Shown here: positions 32,067 through 38,925 of the stretch, in pieces
Layout: each line of letters starts with the position of its first letter
How positions within the stretch are numbered: the stretch's first letter is position 1
Source: Paracoccaceae bacterium
GTDB lineage: Bacteria; Pseudomonadota; Alphaproteobacteria; Rhodobacterales; Rhodobacteraceae
Length of the DNA stretch: 64,000 nt
NCBI GenBank assembly: GCA_014762635.1
Contig: JABURR010000015.1
Coordinates: forward strand, 1 to 64,000
Direction of reading: 5' to 3'
Notes under the pieces: generated by a model
The model's input: the letters and a program-made list of their open reading frames with translations, nothing else
Database searches by the model: none
Told to the model about the DNA's origin: nothing
Translations under genes and position numbers: made by a program

Positions 32067-33064
32067 CGGATCACCATCCGGGGCGCGCGGCCCAGCGGGA
32101 AAGGCCCGAAAGCCACGAGGCCGTTCTTGAAGCTGAGCGGTGCGTCGATGGTTTCGGGCGGGCCTGACATGGCGGCCAGCAAGGTAAGCGCATTCTCTAC
32201 CGTCGGCGCGATTTCCGCGGGCACCAAGCCCGAAGCCTGCGCCATCGCCAGCATCTCGCGCCAGTTCGTGGCCTTGACGACGATCCGGCCCTCGGGGTTG
32301 CCGGCCTCGTCGACCGTAAGGTCACCGGCCAGCCGCAGGTCGAGGTTGCCCCAGGTCGCCTGCACCAGCTTCAGGTCCAGATCGGTGATCTGTGGGCGGG
32401 CATCCTCGATGGCATAACGGTCCCAGGGGGCATCGAACCCCATAGTCATGTCGATCTTCAGGGTCTCGACGGTCTCGGGCAGCGCCCCGAGAGGGTCGAG
32501 TTGCCTGCGCACCTGATCCGCTGGCCGGAAGCCCAGCGCCTCGAAGGCGATATCATGGGTATCCGTCTGACCCGGCGTCTGGCGGGTAGAAAGCTGGCCA
32601 CGCTCCACCGCTGCATCCCAGCCGGCGTTCGAGACCAGCCGGAAGCGATCGAGCACGATGGTCGACCGATCCAGCGCCAGGGCAGTATCGGGTTCGAACA
32701 CCACGCTGCCCTTCATCTCGGCGCTTTCGATGGTGATGCGCTGGTAGGGCGAGGCGATGGTCTGGGTACGGGGCCAGACCGCGATGATATGGTTCGGGCT
32801 GTAGCTGAGGGTCAGGATCTGGAAGAATGGCGCGCTCCAGGCGACACCGGTCTGCGGGTCCGCCAGTTGCAGGTCCAGGAAGGTCGTGTCGAATCGGTTG
32901 GGAAAGCCTTGAGTTTCGAGGCTGGCATATTCCGCCACCCAGCCTTCGTCCGCGCGGGCGTCGATCCAGTTGCGCAGGCCCTTTTCCATCGCCGTGGAGC
33001 CCACGACCCAGTAGCTGCCCCAAATGGCACCCAGTGACAGCATCACCACCAGAAGTCTGCGCAT
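32063..33064 (-). CDS. DUF2125 exported protein
   Basis: A 333-residue protein of the DUF2125 family, common in alphaproteobacteria. One N-terminal hydrophobic anchor or signal (LLVVMLSLGAIWGSYWVVGS) precedes a large beta-rich periplasmic domain (TQGFPNRFDTTFLDLQLAD, LSYSPNHIIAVWPRTQTIA). Such domains resemble the repeated beta-strand plan of lipid-transport proteins, but function is unproven. ATG 33062-33064 with AAAGGGG 5 bases upstream is preferred to a TTG 15 bases earlier. Overlaps the 3' end of the extensin-like gene by 4 bases and is divergent from the ChaC-like gene. Confidence 0.82.
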   Translation of the reverse strand: MRRLLVVMLSLGAIWGSYWVVGSTAMEKGLRNWIDARADEGWVAEYASLETQGFPNRFDTTFLDLQLADPQTGVAWSAPFFQILTLSYSPNHIIAVWPRTQTIASPYQRITIESAEMKGSVVFEPDTALALDRSTIVLDRFRLVSNAGWDAAVERGQLSTRQTPGQTDTHDIAFEALGFRPADQVRRQLDPLGALPETVETLKIDMTMGFDAPWDRYAIEDARPQITDLDLKLVQATWGNLDLRLAGDLTVDEAGNPEGRIVVKATNWREMLAMAQASGLVPAEIAPTVENALTLLAAMSGPPETIDAPLSFKNGLVAFGPFPLGRAPRMVIR

Positions 33065-33128
33065 GAAAGCCCCTTTCAACCCGGACCAGCGTCGTGTTTA
33101 CAGTCCGGCAGATAGGAGGACCAGAGCC

Positions 33129-33677
33129 ATGGGCCAAGGGCCGTTGTGGATATTCGGCTACGGATCGCTGATGTGGAACCCCGGATTCCCGGTGGCCGAA
33201 CGCGTGCTGGCGACCCTGCCGGGCTATGCGCGGACCTTCTGCATGTGGTCGATCCATCACCGGGGCACACCGGAAAAGCCCGGCCTTGTCCTGGCGCTGG
33301 ATGAGCACCACGAGGCGGCCTGCCACGGGCTGGCCTTTGCCGTCACCGGCGGGGCGGAAGAGGAAACCATCGCCTACCTGCGCGAGCGGGAACTGATTTC
33401 CTCGGCCTACCTAGAACGGGAATTGTCGGTAACCCTGGTGGATGGGCGCCGCGTCGACGCAGTGACCTACGTCGTCGATCCCCATCACGAACAATACTGC
33501 GGCGGGCTGCCGCTTGAAGATCAGGCTCAGGTGATTTCCCGTGCACACGGCGGCCGTGGGCCGAATACCGAGTACCTGTTCAACACCGCCGAACACCTTG
33601 CGGAACTGGGAATCGAGGACCCCGATCTGGGCTGGCTGACCGACCGTGTCCGAAAGATCGCCGACGGAACATACTGA
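33129..33677 (+). CDS. ChaC-like gamma-glutamylcyclotransferase
   Basis: A 182-residue cytosolic protein of the ChaC/GGCT fold. ChaC enzymes split glutathione into 5-oxoproline and Cys-Gly. The substrate-binding YGSL motif appears in WIFGYGSLMWNPGFP; the conserved core ARTFCMWSIHHRGTPEKPGL and the region of the catalytic glutamate (LRERELISSAYLERE) are present. AGGAGG lies 9 bases before ATG 33129. An open frame extends upstream to 33024 but overlaps the divergent gene's leader. Confidence 0.9.
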   Translation: MGQGPLWIFGYGSLMWNPGFPVAERVLATLPGYARTFCMWSIHHRGTPEKPGLVLALDEHHEAACHGLAFAVTGGAEEETIAYLRERELISSAYLERELSVTLVDGRRVDAVTYVVDPHHEQYCGGLPLEDQAQVISRAHGGRGPNTEYLFNTAEHLAELGIEDPDLGWLTDRVRKIADGTY

Positions 33678-33752
33678 GACTATTGCCGGTTGGCACCGCC
33701 GGTAATCGCCTCTATCCTCCGGCCCGAGAAAACATCGACAGGACATGGCCCT

Positions 33753-34997
33753 ATGAACCGTCGGGATCGCGAGGCCGAGCCATTCTTTTCGCATCCGGTG
33801 CGTCAGATCTTCCTGATGCTCATCGCCCTCGGACTCGTGGGCGGCGGGCTCTTTTTGGCGTTTCCCCGGGTTGCGCCGGTCTTTCTGGCCAACCTTTACC
33901 TGAACGGGTTCATCTTTCTGGTCTTCATCATCGGGATCGTGACCTGTTTCGCGCAGGTCTTCCAACTGTCGTCCTCGGTGAACTGGATCAAGGGCTTCGC
34001 CGAAGAACGCCCGGGCCATTCGCTGGTGCGCCCACCGCGGCTGCTTGCGCCGTTGGCCGCGCTGCTGCGCTCGCGCGGGCGGGAGATGCAGATCAACGCG
34101 ACCTCGGCCCGATCAATCCTCGATTCCGTGGCGACCCGGATCGACGAGGCGCGCGACATCACGCGCTACATCGTCAACCTTCTGATCTTCCTTGGCCTGC
34201 TGGGGACGTTCTACGGCCTTGCGACCACGGTCCCGGCGGTGGTCGAGACGATCCGCTCGCTTGCCCCCAACGACAGCGACACCGGGATGGAGGTCTTCGC
34301 CCGGCTGATGTCCGGCCTTGAGGCACAACTCGGCGGCATGGGCGTGGCGTTTTCCTCCTCGCTTCTGGGCCTTGCCGGATCGCTGGTCGTTGGCTTGCTG
34401 GAACTGTTCGCCAGCCACGGGCAGAACCGGTTCTACCGGGAACTCGAGGAATGGCTCTCGACGATCACCCGGCTTGGCATCGCATCCGCGGACGGAAGCG
34501 ACGAGGGCAGCCAGGCCATTGCGGTTCTGGATCGGATGGCCGAACAGCTCGACGTTCTCCAGACGCTTTTCGTGCAATCCGACGAAAGCCGTGCGCTGGT
34601 GGACGAGCGTCTCGGGGAAGTCTCCGAAGCGCTGAGCGGATTGATTCGTCGCCTCGACTCCGAAACCAACCCTGCGGCCGCGCTGGATCGCCTGGCCGAT
34701 GGTCAAGATCGCCTGATTTCGGTGATTGAACGCTCCGGCTCCCGGGCCGCGTCCTCGGAGGCGCTCGACCGTATCGCCGACGGGCAAGAGCGGATGATCG
34801 CGGCGCTTGAGGGTACGAGCAAGGAGGGCGGCGCCCATTGGGACGCCGAGAACCGGATGCGGATGCGCTCCATCGACGTGCAGCTTCTGCGTATCCTCGA
34901 AGAGCTCACCGCCGGGCGTCAGGATGCCGTTTCCGAATTGCGGGCCGAGTTGCGGGCGCTGACCCGCGCCGTGCGCGGCGAGGATCAGGACAGCTAG
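33753..34997 (+). CDS. MotA/TolQ/ExbB-type membrane protein with a repeated C-terminal tail
   Basis: A 414-residue protein with four hydrophobic segments: FLMLIALGLVGGGLFLAF, a second at about residues 46-68, YIVNLLIFLGLLGTFYGLA, and FSSSLLGLAGSLVVGLLEL. The last two match the pore helices of MotA/TolQ/ExbB proton channels (GLLGTFYGLATTVPAV). After the last helix a tail of about 200 residues carries near-repeats: VLDRMAEQLDVLQ, ALDRLADGQDRLISVIE and ALDRIADGQERMIAALE. It is followed 3 bases later by a MotB-like gene, forming a stator-like pair. Which process the proton flow drives is unknown; no flagellar, Tol or Ton genes are near. Confidence 0.8.
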   Translation: MNRRDREAEPFFSHPVRQIFLMLIALGLVGGGLFLAFPRVAPVFLANLYLNGFIFLVFIIGIVTCFAQVFQLSSSVNWIKGFAEERPGHSLVRPPRLLAPLAALLRSRGREMQINATSARSILDSVATRIDEARDITRYIVNLLIFLGLLGTFYGLATTVPAVVETIRSLAPNDSDTGMEVFARLMSGLEAQLGGMGVAFSSSLLGLAGSLVVGLLELFASHGQNRFYRELEEWLSTITRLGIASADGSDEGSQAIAVLDRMAEQLDVLQTLFVQSDESRALVDERLGEVSEALSGLIRRLDSETNPAAALDRLADGQDRLISVIERSGSRAASSEALDRIADGQERMIAALEGTSKEGGAHWDAENRMRMRSIDVQLLRILEELTAGRQDAVSELRAELRALTRAVRGEDQDS

Positions 34998-35000
34998 GTC

Positions 35001-36644
35001 ATGCCCCCATCCAGAAGATCGGTGAATCGCATGGCGGGCAGCATCTGGCCCGGATTCGTCGATGCGATGACTGCGCTTCTGCTGGTGCTGATGTTCGTTC
35101 TGACGATCTTCATGATCGTGCAGTTCGTCCTGCGCGAGACGATCTCGGGGCAGGAATCGGAACTGGACGAACTCTCGGGCGAGATCACCGCGCTGGCCCA
35201 GGCGCTGGGCCTGGAACAGCAGCGCTCCAACCAGTTGGAGGACCGCGTGCAGAACCTGGACGCCTCGCTGGCGGCGGCCCGGAACGAGATTTCGACCCAG
35301 TCCTCGCTGATCGCGGCGCTGACCGCGCAGACGGAATCCCAGGCCGCCGAGCTTGAGGACCGCGCGGCAAGAATCGCCAGTTTCGAGGCTCAGGTCGCCT
35401 CGCTTCTGTCCGAACGCGACAGCGCCCGCGCCGAGGTCTCGGCGCTGGAGGAAGAACGTGGCGAGCTTCTGTCCGAGCAGGAAGCCCTGAACCTTGCCCT
35501 GGCCCGCGCCCGCGACGAGATCGACGCCAACGCAGAGGCCGCCCGGCTGGCCGCGGCCCGGCGCGAGGCACTGGAAGCCCTGATCGCTGATTTGCGGACC
35601 GAGGCGGCGGAACGCGACGCGGAGCTTGCCGACACGCAGCAGGCCCTGAGCGACACCCAAACCGAACTGTCCGAGGAAGAGGCCGCGCGGCTGGCCGAGG
35701 CCGCCGCCGCGGAAGCGCTTCGCAAACGGCTGGAGAACAGCGAAGCGGAACTCACCGCCATGTCGCTTGCACTGGAAGAGCAGCGCAAGCAGGCGGAAGA
35801 AACCCTGACACTGCTTGCTGCCGCCCGCGCAGCCGCTGAGGAAGCCGAAGCGGCCGCCTCTCAGAACATGACCGAGGCAGAACGCCAGGCGGCGCTGCTT
35901 GCACTGGCGAACCAGAAGCTCTCGGAAGAGGAAGCCAAGTCCGCCGACAGCCTGCGGCGCGTCGCGGCGCTGAATGAACAGGTCGCGGCGCTGCGCGGCC
36001 AGCTGGGTCAGCTTCAGAACCTGCTGGACGAGTCTGACGCCCGGGATGCCGCCGCGAGGGTTCAGATGGAGTCGCTTGGCAACCGGCTGAACGCGGCCCT
36101 GGCCCGTGCTGCCTCCGAGGAGCGCAAGCGCGCGGAATTGGAAGAGGCCGAGCGCAAGCGGCTCGAGGCCGAGGCCAAGCAGCTTGAACGCTACCGTTCG
36201 GAATTCTTCGGCCGCCTGCGCGAGGTTCTGGCCGGGCGCGAAGGGGTCAGGATCGTCGGCGACCGGTTCGTCTTTTCCTCCGAGGTCCTGTTCGAACCCG
36301 GCCGCGCCGAACTGGGTCCAGAAGGCCAAGCCCAGATCGCCCGCGTCGCCCGGCTCTTGCAGGACGTCTCGCGCGAAATCCCCGGGGATATCGACTGGAT
36401 CATCCGGGTCGATGGCCACACGGACAACATCCCCCTCGGCTCGGGCAGCGAGTTCGCCGACAACTGGGAGCTTTCCACGGCCCGCGCGCTGTCGGTGGTC
36501 AACTACATGATCGACGATCTCGGCTTCCCGCCCGAGCATCTGGCTGCCACCGGTTTTGGTGAGTTCCAGCCTGTCGACCCCCGCAACACATCCGCCGCCC
36601 GCGCCCAGAACCGCCGGATCGAGCTCAAGCTGACCGAGCGTTGA
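35001..36644 (+). CDS. MotB-like protein: membrane plug, long coiled coil, OmpA domain
   Basis: A 547-residue protein. A single transmembrane helix near the N-terminus carries an acidic residue at its cytoplasmic edge (FVDAMTALLLVLMFVL, Asp21), the position of the proton-carrying aspartate of MotB. A very long coiled coil (about residues 45-395, rich in Ala, Glu, Leu and Arg) leads to a C-terminal OmpA/MotB peptidoglycan-binding domain (about 405-547). That domain has FVFSSEVLFEPGRAELG, IIRVDGHTDNIPLGSG and ARAQNRRIELKL. The coil, if extended, could reach some 50 nm. It pairs with the upstream MotA-like protein. Confidence 0.85.
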   Translation: MPPSRRSVNRMAGSIWPGFVDAMTALLLVLMFVLTIFMIVQFVLRETISGQESELDELSGEITALAQALGLEQQRSNQLEDRVQNLDASLAAARNEISTQSSLIAALTAQTESQAAELEDRAARIASFEAQVASLLSERDSARAEVSALEEERGELLSEQEALNLALARARDEIDANAEAARLAAARREALEALIADLRTEAAERDAELADTQQALSDTQTELSEEEAARLAEAAAAEALRKRLENSEAELTAMSLALEEQRKQAEETLTLLAAARAAAEEAEAAASQNMTEAERQAALLALANQKLSEEEAKSADSLRRVAALNEQVAALRGQLGQLQNLLDESDARDAAARVQMESLGNRLNAALARAASEERKRAELEEAERKRLEAEAKQLERYRSEFFGRLREVLAGREGVRIVGDRFVFSSEVLFEPGRAELGPEGQAQIARVARLLQDVSREIPGDIDWIIRVDGHTDNIPLGSGSEFADNWELSTARALSVVNYMIDDLGFPPEHLAATGFGEFQPVDPRNTSAARAQNRRIELKLTER

Positions 36645-36657
36645 ACTGGCTTGCTGT

Positions 36658-38925
36658 TCAGCGCCGCGGATCCTCCGAGTAGGACGCCCCGAGAACCCAA
36701 CGCGCAATTGCCGTCCCCATTCGACGCAATGCAGAGGGTGCGACCCTCTGGACACGATACTCGAGCGACATGGTCGAATCCCCGAAGGCATGCGCTTTCC
36801 GGACATTTACCCGGGTTGCCACCAGGAAGAGGGGCGCAAGCCGGGCCTCCTCGAGTATCCGCCGCATCGCCATGACCGCGCTGCGCGGCGTATGATTCCA
36901 TCGCGAGAAAGCGACCAACCCATCGGCCATCCGAAGCAGAGCGACAATATCCGGCGAGGCCAGAACCGGCGGCATGTCGAGAATGATGCAGTCGTACTCC
37001 TTCTGCAGCGACGAGATCACAAGGGTGAGGGTGTGATCGTCGCGCAGCAGCGGGCCATCGTTCGCCTCCCATGCGGGCAAGATATCCAGGCCCTTCACAG
37101 GCATGTGCAGGATCGCGCGGGATACCGCCCCGGGATCCTTGCGGGTGCGTTCAAGCAGCCGCTTTGTCATCTTGGACCGCCCCCAGTAGGGCGAGTGGGC
37201 GGGATCACAGTCCACGATGATCGTCTTGCGCCCGGTTGCCGCATAGCTTCGAGCCAAGACCACGAGTGCAGTCGACTGGCCTTCGCCCGGCAAGGCGGAA
37301 ACACCCGCCAGAACGATACTGCATTTCTCGTTTTCCGGGTTCGCGTGATCGCTACCAGCCCCCTGTGCCTCGGGCCATCCCGTTAATGGATCCTGGCCCA
37401 GCGCCGATTGTATGGCGGGGTCGGCATCGATGGTGGAAGCGATCGTTCGGCCAAATCTCGACAAGGCCGGTTGCGCCTGAGCGTCAGGATCGAAAAGCGC
37501 CTCAAGCGGCGCCTCCGCCTTTCTGACTTCCGGAAAACTGCCCGCGAACGGCAATCCGGCGTATTCCTCGAATTCTCGCTGGGTTCGAAGGCGGTTTTGG
37601 AAGCCTTCCCGCAGAATGACCACGCCCGTCATCAGAAAGAACGCAAGTGCCCCTGCGGTTACGGCGATGAGCGCCCGGTTTGGCTCTGACGACTCGATGG
37701 GAACACGGGCACGCTCGATGATCTGCGCATCAGGCTCAAGATACTGGTCCTGCTGGGTGCGGCGGCTCAATTGCTGAACGAAATCCAGGTAGATCGCCTC
37801 GGTCACAGCGATTTCGTTCTTGATCCGTCCGGCTGCCGCATCATGCTGTGCCTGCCGGGCCTGGTCGGCCTTCAAGTCGTCGAGTAGCGCGACAATCACA
37901 TCCAGGCGCTCCTGAACGGCCTCCATACTGCGCTCCAACCTCTCCATTGCGCTGCGAACCACCGCCTCGGTGACCGGCACGCCGGACGGAAGATCCGCCA
38001 GGTCCGCCGCCTGCGCCAGATCATCGGCGCCCAGTGCCGCCTTCAAACCCGAAATCCGGGACTCCAGATCGGAAAGATTGTCCGTTTCACTGCGAAACTC
38101 GCGCCCGGCCCGAACACGTTGCGCCTTGATCGTCGCATATTCTTCCGGCGAGAACGGCGCCTCGAGCGCATGGTCCTCCAACTCCGCCGCCAACTTGTTG
38201 AGGTGCTCCTGCAATTCCTGGGTTCGGACCGTGAGCCAGCCCTGCGCCTGCGCCAAGGCGCGCAGCTTTGCCTCGCGCTGCGCCGTCAGGTATTCCTCGG
38301 CCAAGGCATTTGCGATCGCCGCCGAACGCTGCGGGTCAAGCGATGTGATCCGGATCTTGTAGACCGCCGAGGCCTCGCCAACCTGTTCGATACTGCGCGA
38401 CTTGGCGACCCGTTCGATTGCCCGTTCCTTGAGCAGATGAGCCGCCTCTGCGGCGTCAACGTCGGTCTCTGCCTCGCTTTCGGTCACTTCGGCCTTCAAC
38501 GCCCTGAGCAGGGAAAGAGGTGAAAGAGATATCGAGGCGATCTGCCCCGAGAACTCGGGATCTTCCGTCAGGTTCAGACGATCGACCACACGTTCGATCA
38601 GGTCGGTCGAGCGCAGCACTTCCAACTCGCTCTGCAAAGAGGTGAGCGTGGTCGGAAGGCCGGAAACCTGCGGGGTGTATTCCGGATCCGCCACGACGCG
38701 TGTATCGATCATGACCTGTGCCGCGGAACTGAACCGCTCGTCCGTCAGGTAGGACAGGGCATAGGCTGCCACGGCACCGGCAAATGCGACCAGGAAAATG
38801 GCCGCCATCCCGCGCCGCAGGGCCCAGTAGATCTCCTTCAATTTCCGGATTTCCGCATCACCGGGAAGCTCTTCCACATGTCCGTGGAAATCATTCGAAA
38901 CGTTGGAATGGGCCGGGCTATTCAT
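36658..38925 (-). CDS. Wzc-like chain-length/tyrosine-kinase protein with degenerate nucleotide site
   Basis: A 755-residue inner-membrane protein of the polysaccharide co-polymerase family: Wzz domain with two transmembrane helices (AAIFLVAFAGAVAAYAL; ALIAVTAGALAFFLMTGVVI) around a periplasmic coiled coil, then a cytosolic BY-kinase-like P-loop domain. The Walker A reads SALPGEGQSTALVV, with Gln550 where the catalytic lysine should be. The Walker A' reads IIVDCDPAHSP, without the usual arginine, while CIILDMPPVLASPD (Walker B) is kept. There is no C-terminal tyrosine cluster. It probably sets chain length without kinase activity. ATG 38925 is preferred to TTG 38931. Confidence 0.88.
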   Translation of the reverse strand: MNSPAHSNVSNDFHGHVEELPGDAEIRKLKEIYWALRRGMAAIFLVAFAGAVAAYALSYLTDERFSSAAQVMIDTRVVADPEYTPQVSGLPTTLTSLQSELEVLRSTDLIERVVDRLNLTEDPEFSGQIASISLSPLSLLRALKAEVTESEAETDVDAAEAAHLLKERAIERVAKSRSIEQVGEASAVYKIRITSLDPQRSAAIANALAEEYLTAQREAKLRALAQAQGWLTVRTQELQEHLNKLAAELEDHALEAPFSPEEYATIKAQRVRAGREFRSETDNLSDLESRISGLKAALGADDLAQAADLADLPSGVPVTEAVVRSAMERLERSMEAVQERLDVIVALLDDLKADQARQAQHDAAAGRIKNEIAVTEAIYLDFVQQLSRRTQQDQYLEPDAQIIERARVPIESSEPNRALIAVTAGALAFFLMTGVVILREGFQNRLRTQREFEEYAGLPFAGSFPEVRKAEAPLEALFDPDAQAQPALSRFGRTIASTIDADPAIQSALGQDPLTGWPEAQGAGSDHANPENEKCSIVLAGVSALPGEGQSTALVVLARSYAATGRKTIIVDCDPAHSPYWGRSKMTKRLLERTRKDPGAVSRAILHMPVKGLDILPAWEANDGPLLRDDHTLTLVISSLQKEYDCIILDMPPVLASPDIVALLRMADGLVAFSRWNHTPRSAVMAMRRILEEARLAPLFLVATRVNVRKAHAFGDSTMSLEYRVQRVAPSALRRMGTAIARWVLGASYSEDPRR

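Follow-up and report, generated by a model that had tools for sequence, protein, structure and literature searches.

Two adjacent genes, here called A and B, lie in a 64,000-nucleotide stretch of a Paracoccaceae genome (the window) and almost certainly encode a stator-type pair, which with high confidence belongs to a core system that is neither flagellar nor part of Zorya. The pair probably functions as an envelope stator driven by the proton motive force, joined to peptidoglycan by a coiled-coil tether and inherited within the core of many Alphaproteobacteria. Known stators drive motility, import and constriction at the outer membrane, and defence; this one is kept by many Alphaproteobacteria, even in genomes below 1 Mb, and the literature searched contains neither a function for the pair nor a phenotype for A or B. 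Two observations are new here: a three-gene cassette, C-A-B, outside Rhodobacteraceae, and variation of the B coil length in whole heptads. A first-pass annotation, made from the DNA letters, had proposed the pair, and both open reading frames (ORFs) were confirmed where it had placed them, on the forward strand with 3 bases between them. Since orthologs in the same order are found across the class, the pairing is not a matter of chance. The features discussed below are as follows, in window coordinates.

33024-33677, forward: ChaC-like gamma-glutamylcyclotransferase, upstream neighbour conserved in Rhodobacteraceae only and not claimed as part of the system
33690-33718, forward: candidate promoter-like site 5' of A, TTGGCA-17-TATCCT (consensus scan only, 9/12 matches)
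33753-34997, forward: gene A, 414-aa channel subunit of the TolQ/ExbB/ZorA/MotA fold (ORF, predicted fold, ortholog alignment)
34206-34208, forward: Thr152 in TM3 of A (LGLLGTF), proposed ion-path residue (114/114 orthologs)
34359-34361, forward: Ser203 in TM4 of A (AFSSSLLGL), proposed ion-path residue (114/114 orthologs)
34500-34994, forward: cytoplasmic helical tail of A, residues 250-414 (ortholog alignment, AlphaFold2)
35001-36644, forward: gene B, 547-aa MotB-like partner, NCBIfam NF006542 (PRK09039.1-1)
35061-35063, forward: Asp21 in the transmembrane helix of B (WPGFVD), proposed proton-carrying residue
35139-36191, forward: periplasmic coiled coil of B, about residues 47-397 (proline, periodicity and anchor-segment analyses)
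35793-35876, forward: predicted-helix break in B, residues 265-292 (ortholog alignment and single-chain model)
36288-36614, forward: OmpA-type peptidoglycan-binding domain of B, residues 430-538 (PF00691, 59.4 bits, cut-off 27.2)
36658-38925, reverse: Wzz/BY-kinase-like polysaccharide co-polymerase, convergent neighbour, not part of the system

An antisense frame of 897 codons (34113-36806, reverse strand) covers nearly all of A and B; such frames are typical of GC-rich coding DNA, and it was not taken as a gene. An Rfam search of the locus returned no RNA family.

The predicted structure of A (AlphaFold2, pLDDT 79.9) consists of helices at residues 16-46 and 48-83 (TM1-2), 116-169 (TM3) and 178-247 (TM4), followed by the helical tail. 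In a VIA-align comparison, the top rows for the model were stator subunits with Z-scores of 9.5-12.2 (TolQ 12.2, ExbB 11.7, ZorA 10.6, MotA 9.7), a range in which helical bundles, at Z below about 13, may match by arrangement alone; Foldseek E-values for the model were weak, the best being 4e-3. The PF01618 (MotA_ExbB) model scores 15.3 bits on A, under its curated cut-off of 22.9, so that the proposed channel function rests on the fold and the conserved residues. A search of solved structures by sequence gave no match for A alone, and the A profile matched only unrelated coiled coils there. The features of the stator superfamily are nevertheless found across the pair: the core fold of A, the hydroxyl residues in its TM3 and TM4, and an aspartate in the transmembrane helix of B.

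Subunit B is assigned to NF006542, a family annotated as peptidoglycan-binding protein, with 806 bits, about twice the cut-off of 388, while MotB-type NCBIfam models fall far below theirs (e.g., NF005831, 74.2 bits against 301). Its layout agrees with the earlier description of a MotB-like protein with membrane Asp21, a coil of about 350 residues and an OmpA domain, as one transmembrane helix and a 351-residue coil were found and the nearest solved chains to the OmpA domain are MotB and PomB. Asp21 is present in all 109 B orthologs (108 by pattern, the remaining one reading WPSFVD). The NF006542/PRK09039 family, which covers B only, has the same architecture, and it has been named but given no function; since its five models measure 342-350 and 627, the family already accommodates variation in coil length, of which no discussion was found. 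In the searches made, no orthology to a characterised stator emerged that would tell against the first-pass annotation: the family of B is named, and no functional study of it was found.

The flagellar stators MotAB and PomAB share with the pair four transmembrane helices in A and, in B, an Asp-bearing transmembrane helix and an OmpA domain. They differ in that the window genome lacks FliG, the A profile has no similarity to E. coli MotA, and the coil of B is far longer. A flagellar role was rejected on the lack of any FliG_C match in this 96%-complete genome, the 59 genomes that have A without FliG, and the sub-threshold MotB models. The proposal of a stator-type, ion-driven pair with a conserved Asp21 and no flagellar partner is thus borne out. 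The same annotation had described the pair as occurring without flagellar, Tol or Ton genes, which holds for the neighbourhood and not for the genome: a tolA-tolB-pal or tonB gene order beside A/B is absent among the window neighbours and in the class survey, while the only full PF01618 match of the genome is a TolQ on contig C43, which also carries a Pal-like gene.

Among the families tested, A is nearest to ZorA by profile score, since the A profile finds, besides orthologs, Zorya type III ZorA at 36-57 bits and E. coli TolQ, ExbB and MotA at only 0-4 bits; its weak matches outside the class are likewise type III ZorA/DUF802 proteins. The Zorya likeness suggested at first reading therefore stands as far as this relationship goes, and fails for membership, because the NCBIfam ZorA model gives A 15.9 bits against a curated cut-off of 500. 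ZorAB, especially with type III ZorA (DUF802), shares a membrane Asp and an OmpA partner with A/B, and its solved structure is a 5:2 motor (PMC11890865). The long element of Zorya, however, is the cytoplasmic ZorA tail, whereas that of A/B is the periplasmic coil of B. A Zorya-like anti-phage motor, in which phage damage would cause B to bind peptidoglycan, opening the channel and sending a signal through the A tail, accords with type III ZorA as the nearest non-orthologous relatives found, with ZorB3 profiles matching B (8.2e-22) and with the helical cytoplasmic tail. We nonetheless hold it to be very unlikely: Zorya effector genes (ZorC/D/E or type III partners) were not seen among the neighbours checked, several orthologs have almost no A tail, synteny is constant over the class, and the distribution is that of a vertically inherited core rather than an accessory system, as set out below.

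A was found in 159 of 241 alphaproteobacterial genomes and FliG in 144, with both present in 100. Genomes of 0.7-1.1 Mb contain A, and in one 0.9-Mb genome (locus L158) both A and B were confirmed. The pair is absent from some alphaproteobacterial families and so is not required by every member of the class; outside Alphaproteobacteria, clear orthologs occur in only a few genomes. A mobile or viral origin was considered and rejected, as no relative was found in phages or viral contigs and matches in the plasmid collection are confined to large, chromosome-sized replicons of 3.5-4.6 Mb, observations that also weigh against an anti-phage role. One Rhodobacteraceae genome listed as 100% complete (G023) is without A, which 26 genomes of the family in that sample contain; in family f13, too, several of the genomes sampled lack it.

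The gene order around the pair follows two patterns. In Rhodobacteraceae, the usual order is hisC-tyrA-(extensin)-DUF2125-ChaC followed by A/B, and the nine window neighbours scanned were metabolic, ChaC, DUF2125, extensin-like and polysaccharide genes. Elsewhere in the class, thiE, IMPase and C precede A and B in that order, and a convergent ABC transporter and rpmE come after. There, B adjoins A at every locus where B was detected (89 of 89), C lies directly upstream in 65 of 93 loci and IMPase is near in 76 of 93, so the pair usually forms the end of the cassette C-A-B. The C protein comprises a hydrophobic N-terminus (signal-peptide-like by eye), a variable and usually proline-rich middle, and an OmpA domain. 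It was seen upstream of A in L052-L058, L061 and 57 further loci (e.g., L057:9426-10532), and its middle extends to several hundred residues (L061, 843 aa; L181, a frame of 1,140 codons). C is missing at all 20 Rhodobacteraceae loci examined and is absent from the window genome, where its profile gave only a 24-bit match to the Pal-like gene on C43. The description of the pair as stand-alone consequently suits this genome but not the class elsewhere, where C usually precedes A.

The polysaccharide genes downstream had raised the idea of a link with an adjacent exporter. In the window, the convergent Wzz/BY-kinase gene ends 14 bases past B, but none of 113 orthologous loci has it as a neighbour, which leaves a functional link extremely improbable. 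Beside that gene, the segment 39175-41898 carries a WecG/TagA-type glycosyltransferase and then two sulfotransferase-like genes, and is probably part of a sulfated exopolysaccharide cluster.

The cassette also bears on whether the pair is a second Tol/Ton-like transducer, one that would use C to energise a process at the outer membrane and the B coil as a TolA-like arm. Such a transducer would suit the adjoining secreted OmpA-domain protein outside Rhodobacteraceae and the highest Z-scores of A, as TolQR-Pal and ExbBD have the same core fold. A differs from TolQ and ExbB by an extra N-terminal transmembrane helix, its profile similarity to them is nil, the genome has its separate TolQ, and B has an OmpA domain of its own, unlike E. 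coli TolR and ExbD; moreover, B is kept where C is missing. We regard this transducer as rather unlikely, while giving it some weight.

In S. meliloti, the pair is annotated as MotA/TolQ/ExbB and peptidoglycan-binding protein, and a sel1-repeat (sel1/TPR) gene is found two genes away; judged from its domain content and gene order, this gene is probably RgsF (SMc03995). RgsF is essential, acts in zonal wall growth and co-localises with RgsP (PMC7327166); PMC5929573 likewise reports it as essential. A ChvI-bound DNA fragment lies in SMc03993 (PMC3687685), which might belong to the pair.

The tail of A contains a repeat, as noted at first reading, present as LDRLADGQDRLISVIE and LDRIADGQERMIAALE, together with a conserved end, RMRLRSIDVQLLRILEE...GRQ. 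In Rhodobacteraceae, R370, R372, D375 and G388 of this end are invariant, and this conservation, with the probable RgsF gene near the S. meliloti pair, could indicate that B is a passive wall tether and that the tails of A act on a cytoplasmic growth or division factor by turning or binding it. This cytoplasmic role appears improbable, as the tail is mostly missing in some orthologs outside Rhodobacteraceae and very short in L054, L055 and L061, where the whole of A measures 295-304 aa and the B aspartate and OmpA domain stay.

The coil of B in the window contains 0 proline residues and has a hydrophobic period of 3.50. The long coil had been placed in the MotB-like partner, which is correct here, but its length is not fixed and varies at least 11-fold among orthologs, from a B protein of 302 aa (L061, coil 111) to one of 1,439 aa (L040, coil 1,243). 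Nearly all of the length variation falls in the coil, and both ends are conserved; ortholog coils contain 9 prolines in 50,287 residues. When anchor-to-anchor segments were compared in 40 orthologs, the modulo-7 phase was kept in 40/40, 39/40 and 39/40 (118/120), although the segments sharing a phase ranged over 151-200, 55-335 and 90-159 residues. Coiled coils tolerate length shifts of 3 and 4, known as the stammer and stutter. The fourth segment, which contains the helix break, takes phases 0, 3 or 4 in 38 of 40 orthologs; the main variable-length, phase-shifting point lies in this break, near residue 281, and the single-chain model of B (pTM 0.36) shows a low-confidence break there. Between near-relatives, 135 of 296 coil gaps are multiples of 7. 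Outside Rhodobacteraceae, the total length of B is 6 mod 7 in 54 of 88 loci and in 25 of 51 lengths counted once (p 4e-9), a register p-value that overstates independence because orthologs share descent. Many distinct lengths nevertheless share one phase, which descent from a single length does not explain. The coil is thus very likely locked in register yet free in length.

Since segment lengths show no consistent compensation (one weak positive and one weak negative correlation, otherwise none), a parallel coil is favoured over a hairpin, and a parallel, two-stranded arrangement is likely. A fixed intramolecular antiparallel hairpin was rejected as unlikely, given this lack of equal-length compensation. 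The idea that coils grew because C was lost was also rejected: in loci outside Rhodobacteraceae, the presence of C goes, if at all, with a longer B (median 426, compared with 366 where C is absent; p 0.06).

In MotAB, MotA turns around a wall-anchored MotB. By homology to MotAB, TolQR and ZorAB, the envelope stator proposed here, probably A5:B2, would be driven by protonation of Asp21 inside the ring of A subunits, causing A and B to turn relative to each other; the sequence is compatible equally with A turning around a wall-anchored B and with a turning B rod. Two B chains would continue as the parallel coiled coil and carry their OmpA domains to the peptidoglycan, and selection would keep the heptad register along this rod, not its length. 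The periplasm is some 20-30 nm wide. If straight (0.1485 nm per residue), the coil measures about 52 nm in the window protein and reaches about 185 nm in L040; being longer than the periplasm, it may well lie along the wall, a lateral placement to which we give even chances. A rod of free length and fixed register is not a ruler between two membranes. It would instead act as a lateral tether or shaft in which the ends matter, the motor at one and the wall-binding domains at the other, coupling the motor to peptidoglycan at a distance, and secreted C, where present, would probably make a further wall contact. The coil amounts to a natural experiment in which evolution has tried lengths from 111 to more than 1,200 residues while keeping the heptad phase, from which it follows that what counts is continuity of the coil, not its reach. 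Such length variants make it possible to test directly how a motor acts by way of a rod that exceeds the width of the periplasm.

Wall growth or envelope upkeep is suggested by three observations: small genomes keep the pair, C carries a wall-binding domain, and a gene near the S. meliloti pair is probably RgsF. Our best guess is that A/B drives cell-wall growth or envelope maintenance, and we judge a role in wall or envelope maintenance about as probable as its opposite. More speculatively, the pair might represent a class of envelope motor not described before, in the form of a rotary stator with a register-locked, length-free shaft along the periplasm that exerts force on peptidoglycan tens to hundreds of nanometres away, originally an alphaproteobacterial C-A-B system and possibly engaged in cell-wall growth.

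Tandem repeats were also observed in B coils and are one way in which the coil grows, as in L050 and L140. The window coil has no strong repeat of fixed length (best self-identity 34%), while that of L140 has repeats of 35/70/140 residues. At L050:10915-17994, a B ortholog reads about 2,360 aa, an approximate length as a masked stretch lies inside; its coil consists largely of near-identical 113-residue repeats, and that of L040 carries repeats of 109 residues that have diverged. Contrary to the heptad rule elsewhere, neither repeat length is divisible by 7. Finally, G306 (L153:5915-7633) and G398 (L152:5203-6555) encode diverged A proteins of 573 and 451 aa, with a weak B match in a frame of 261 or 257 aa located upstream, not downstream; these are possible further stator families.
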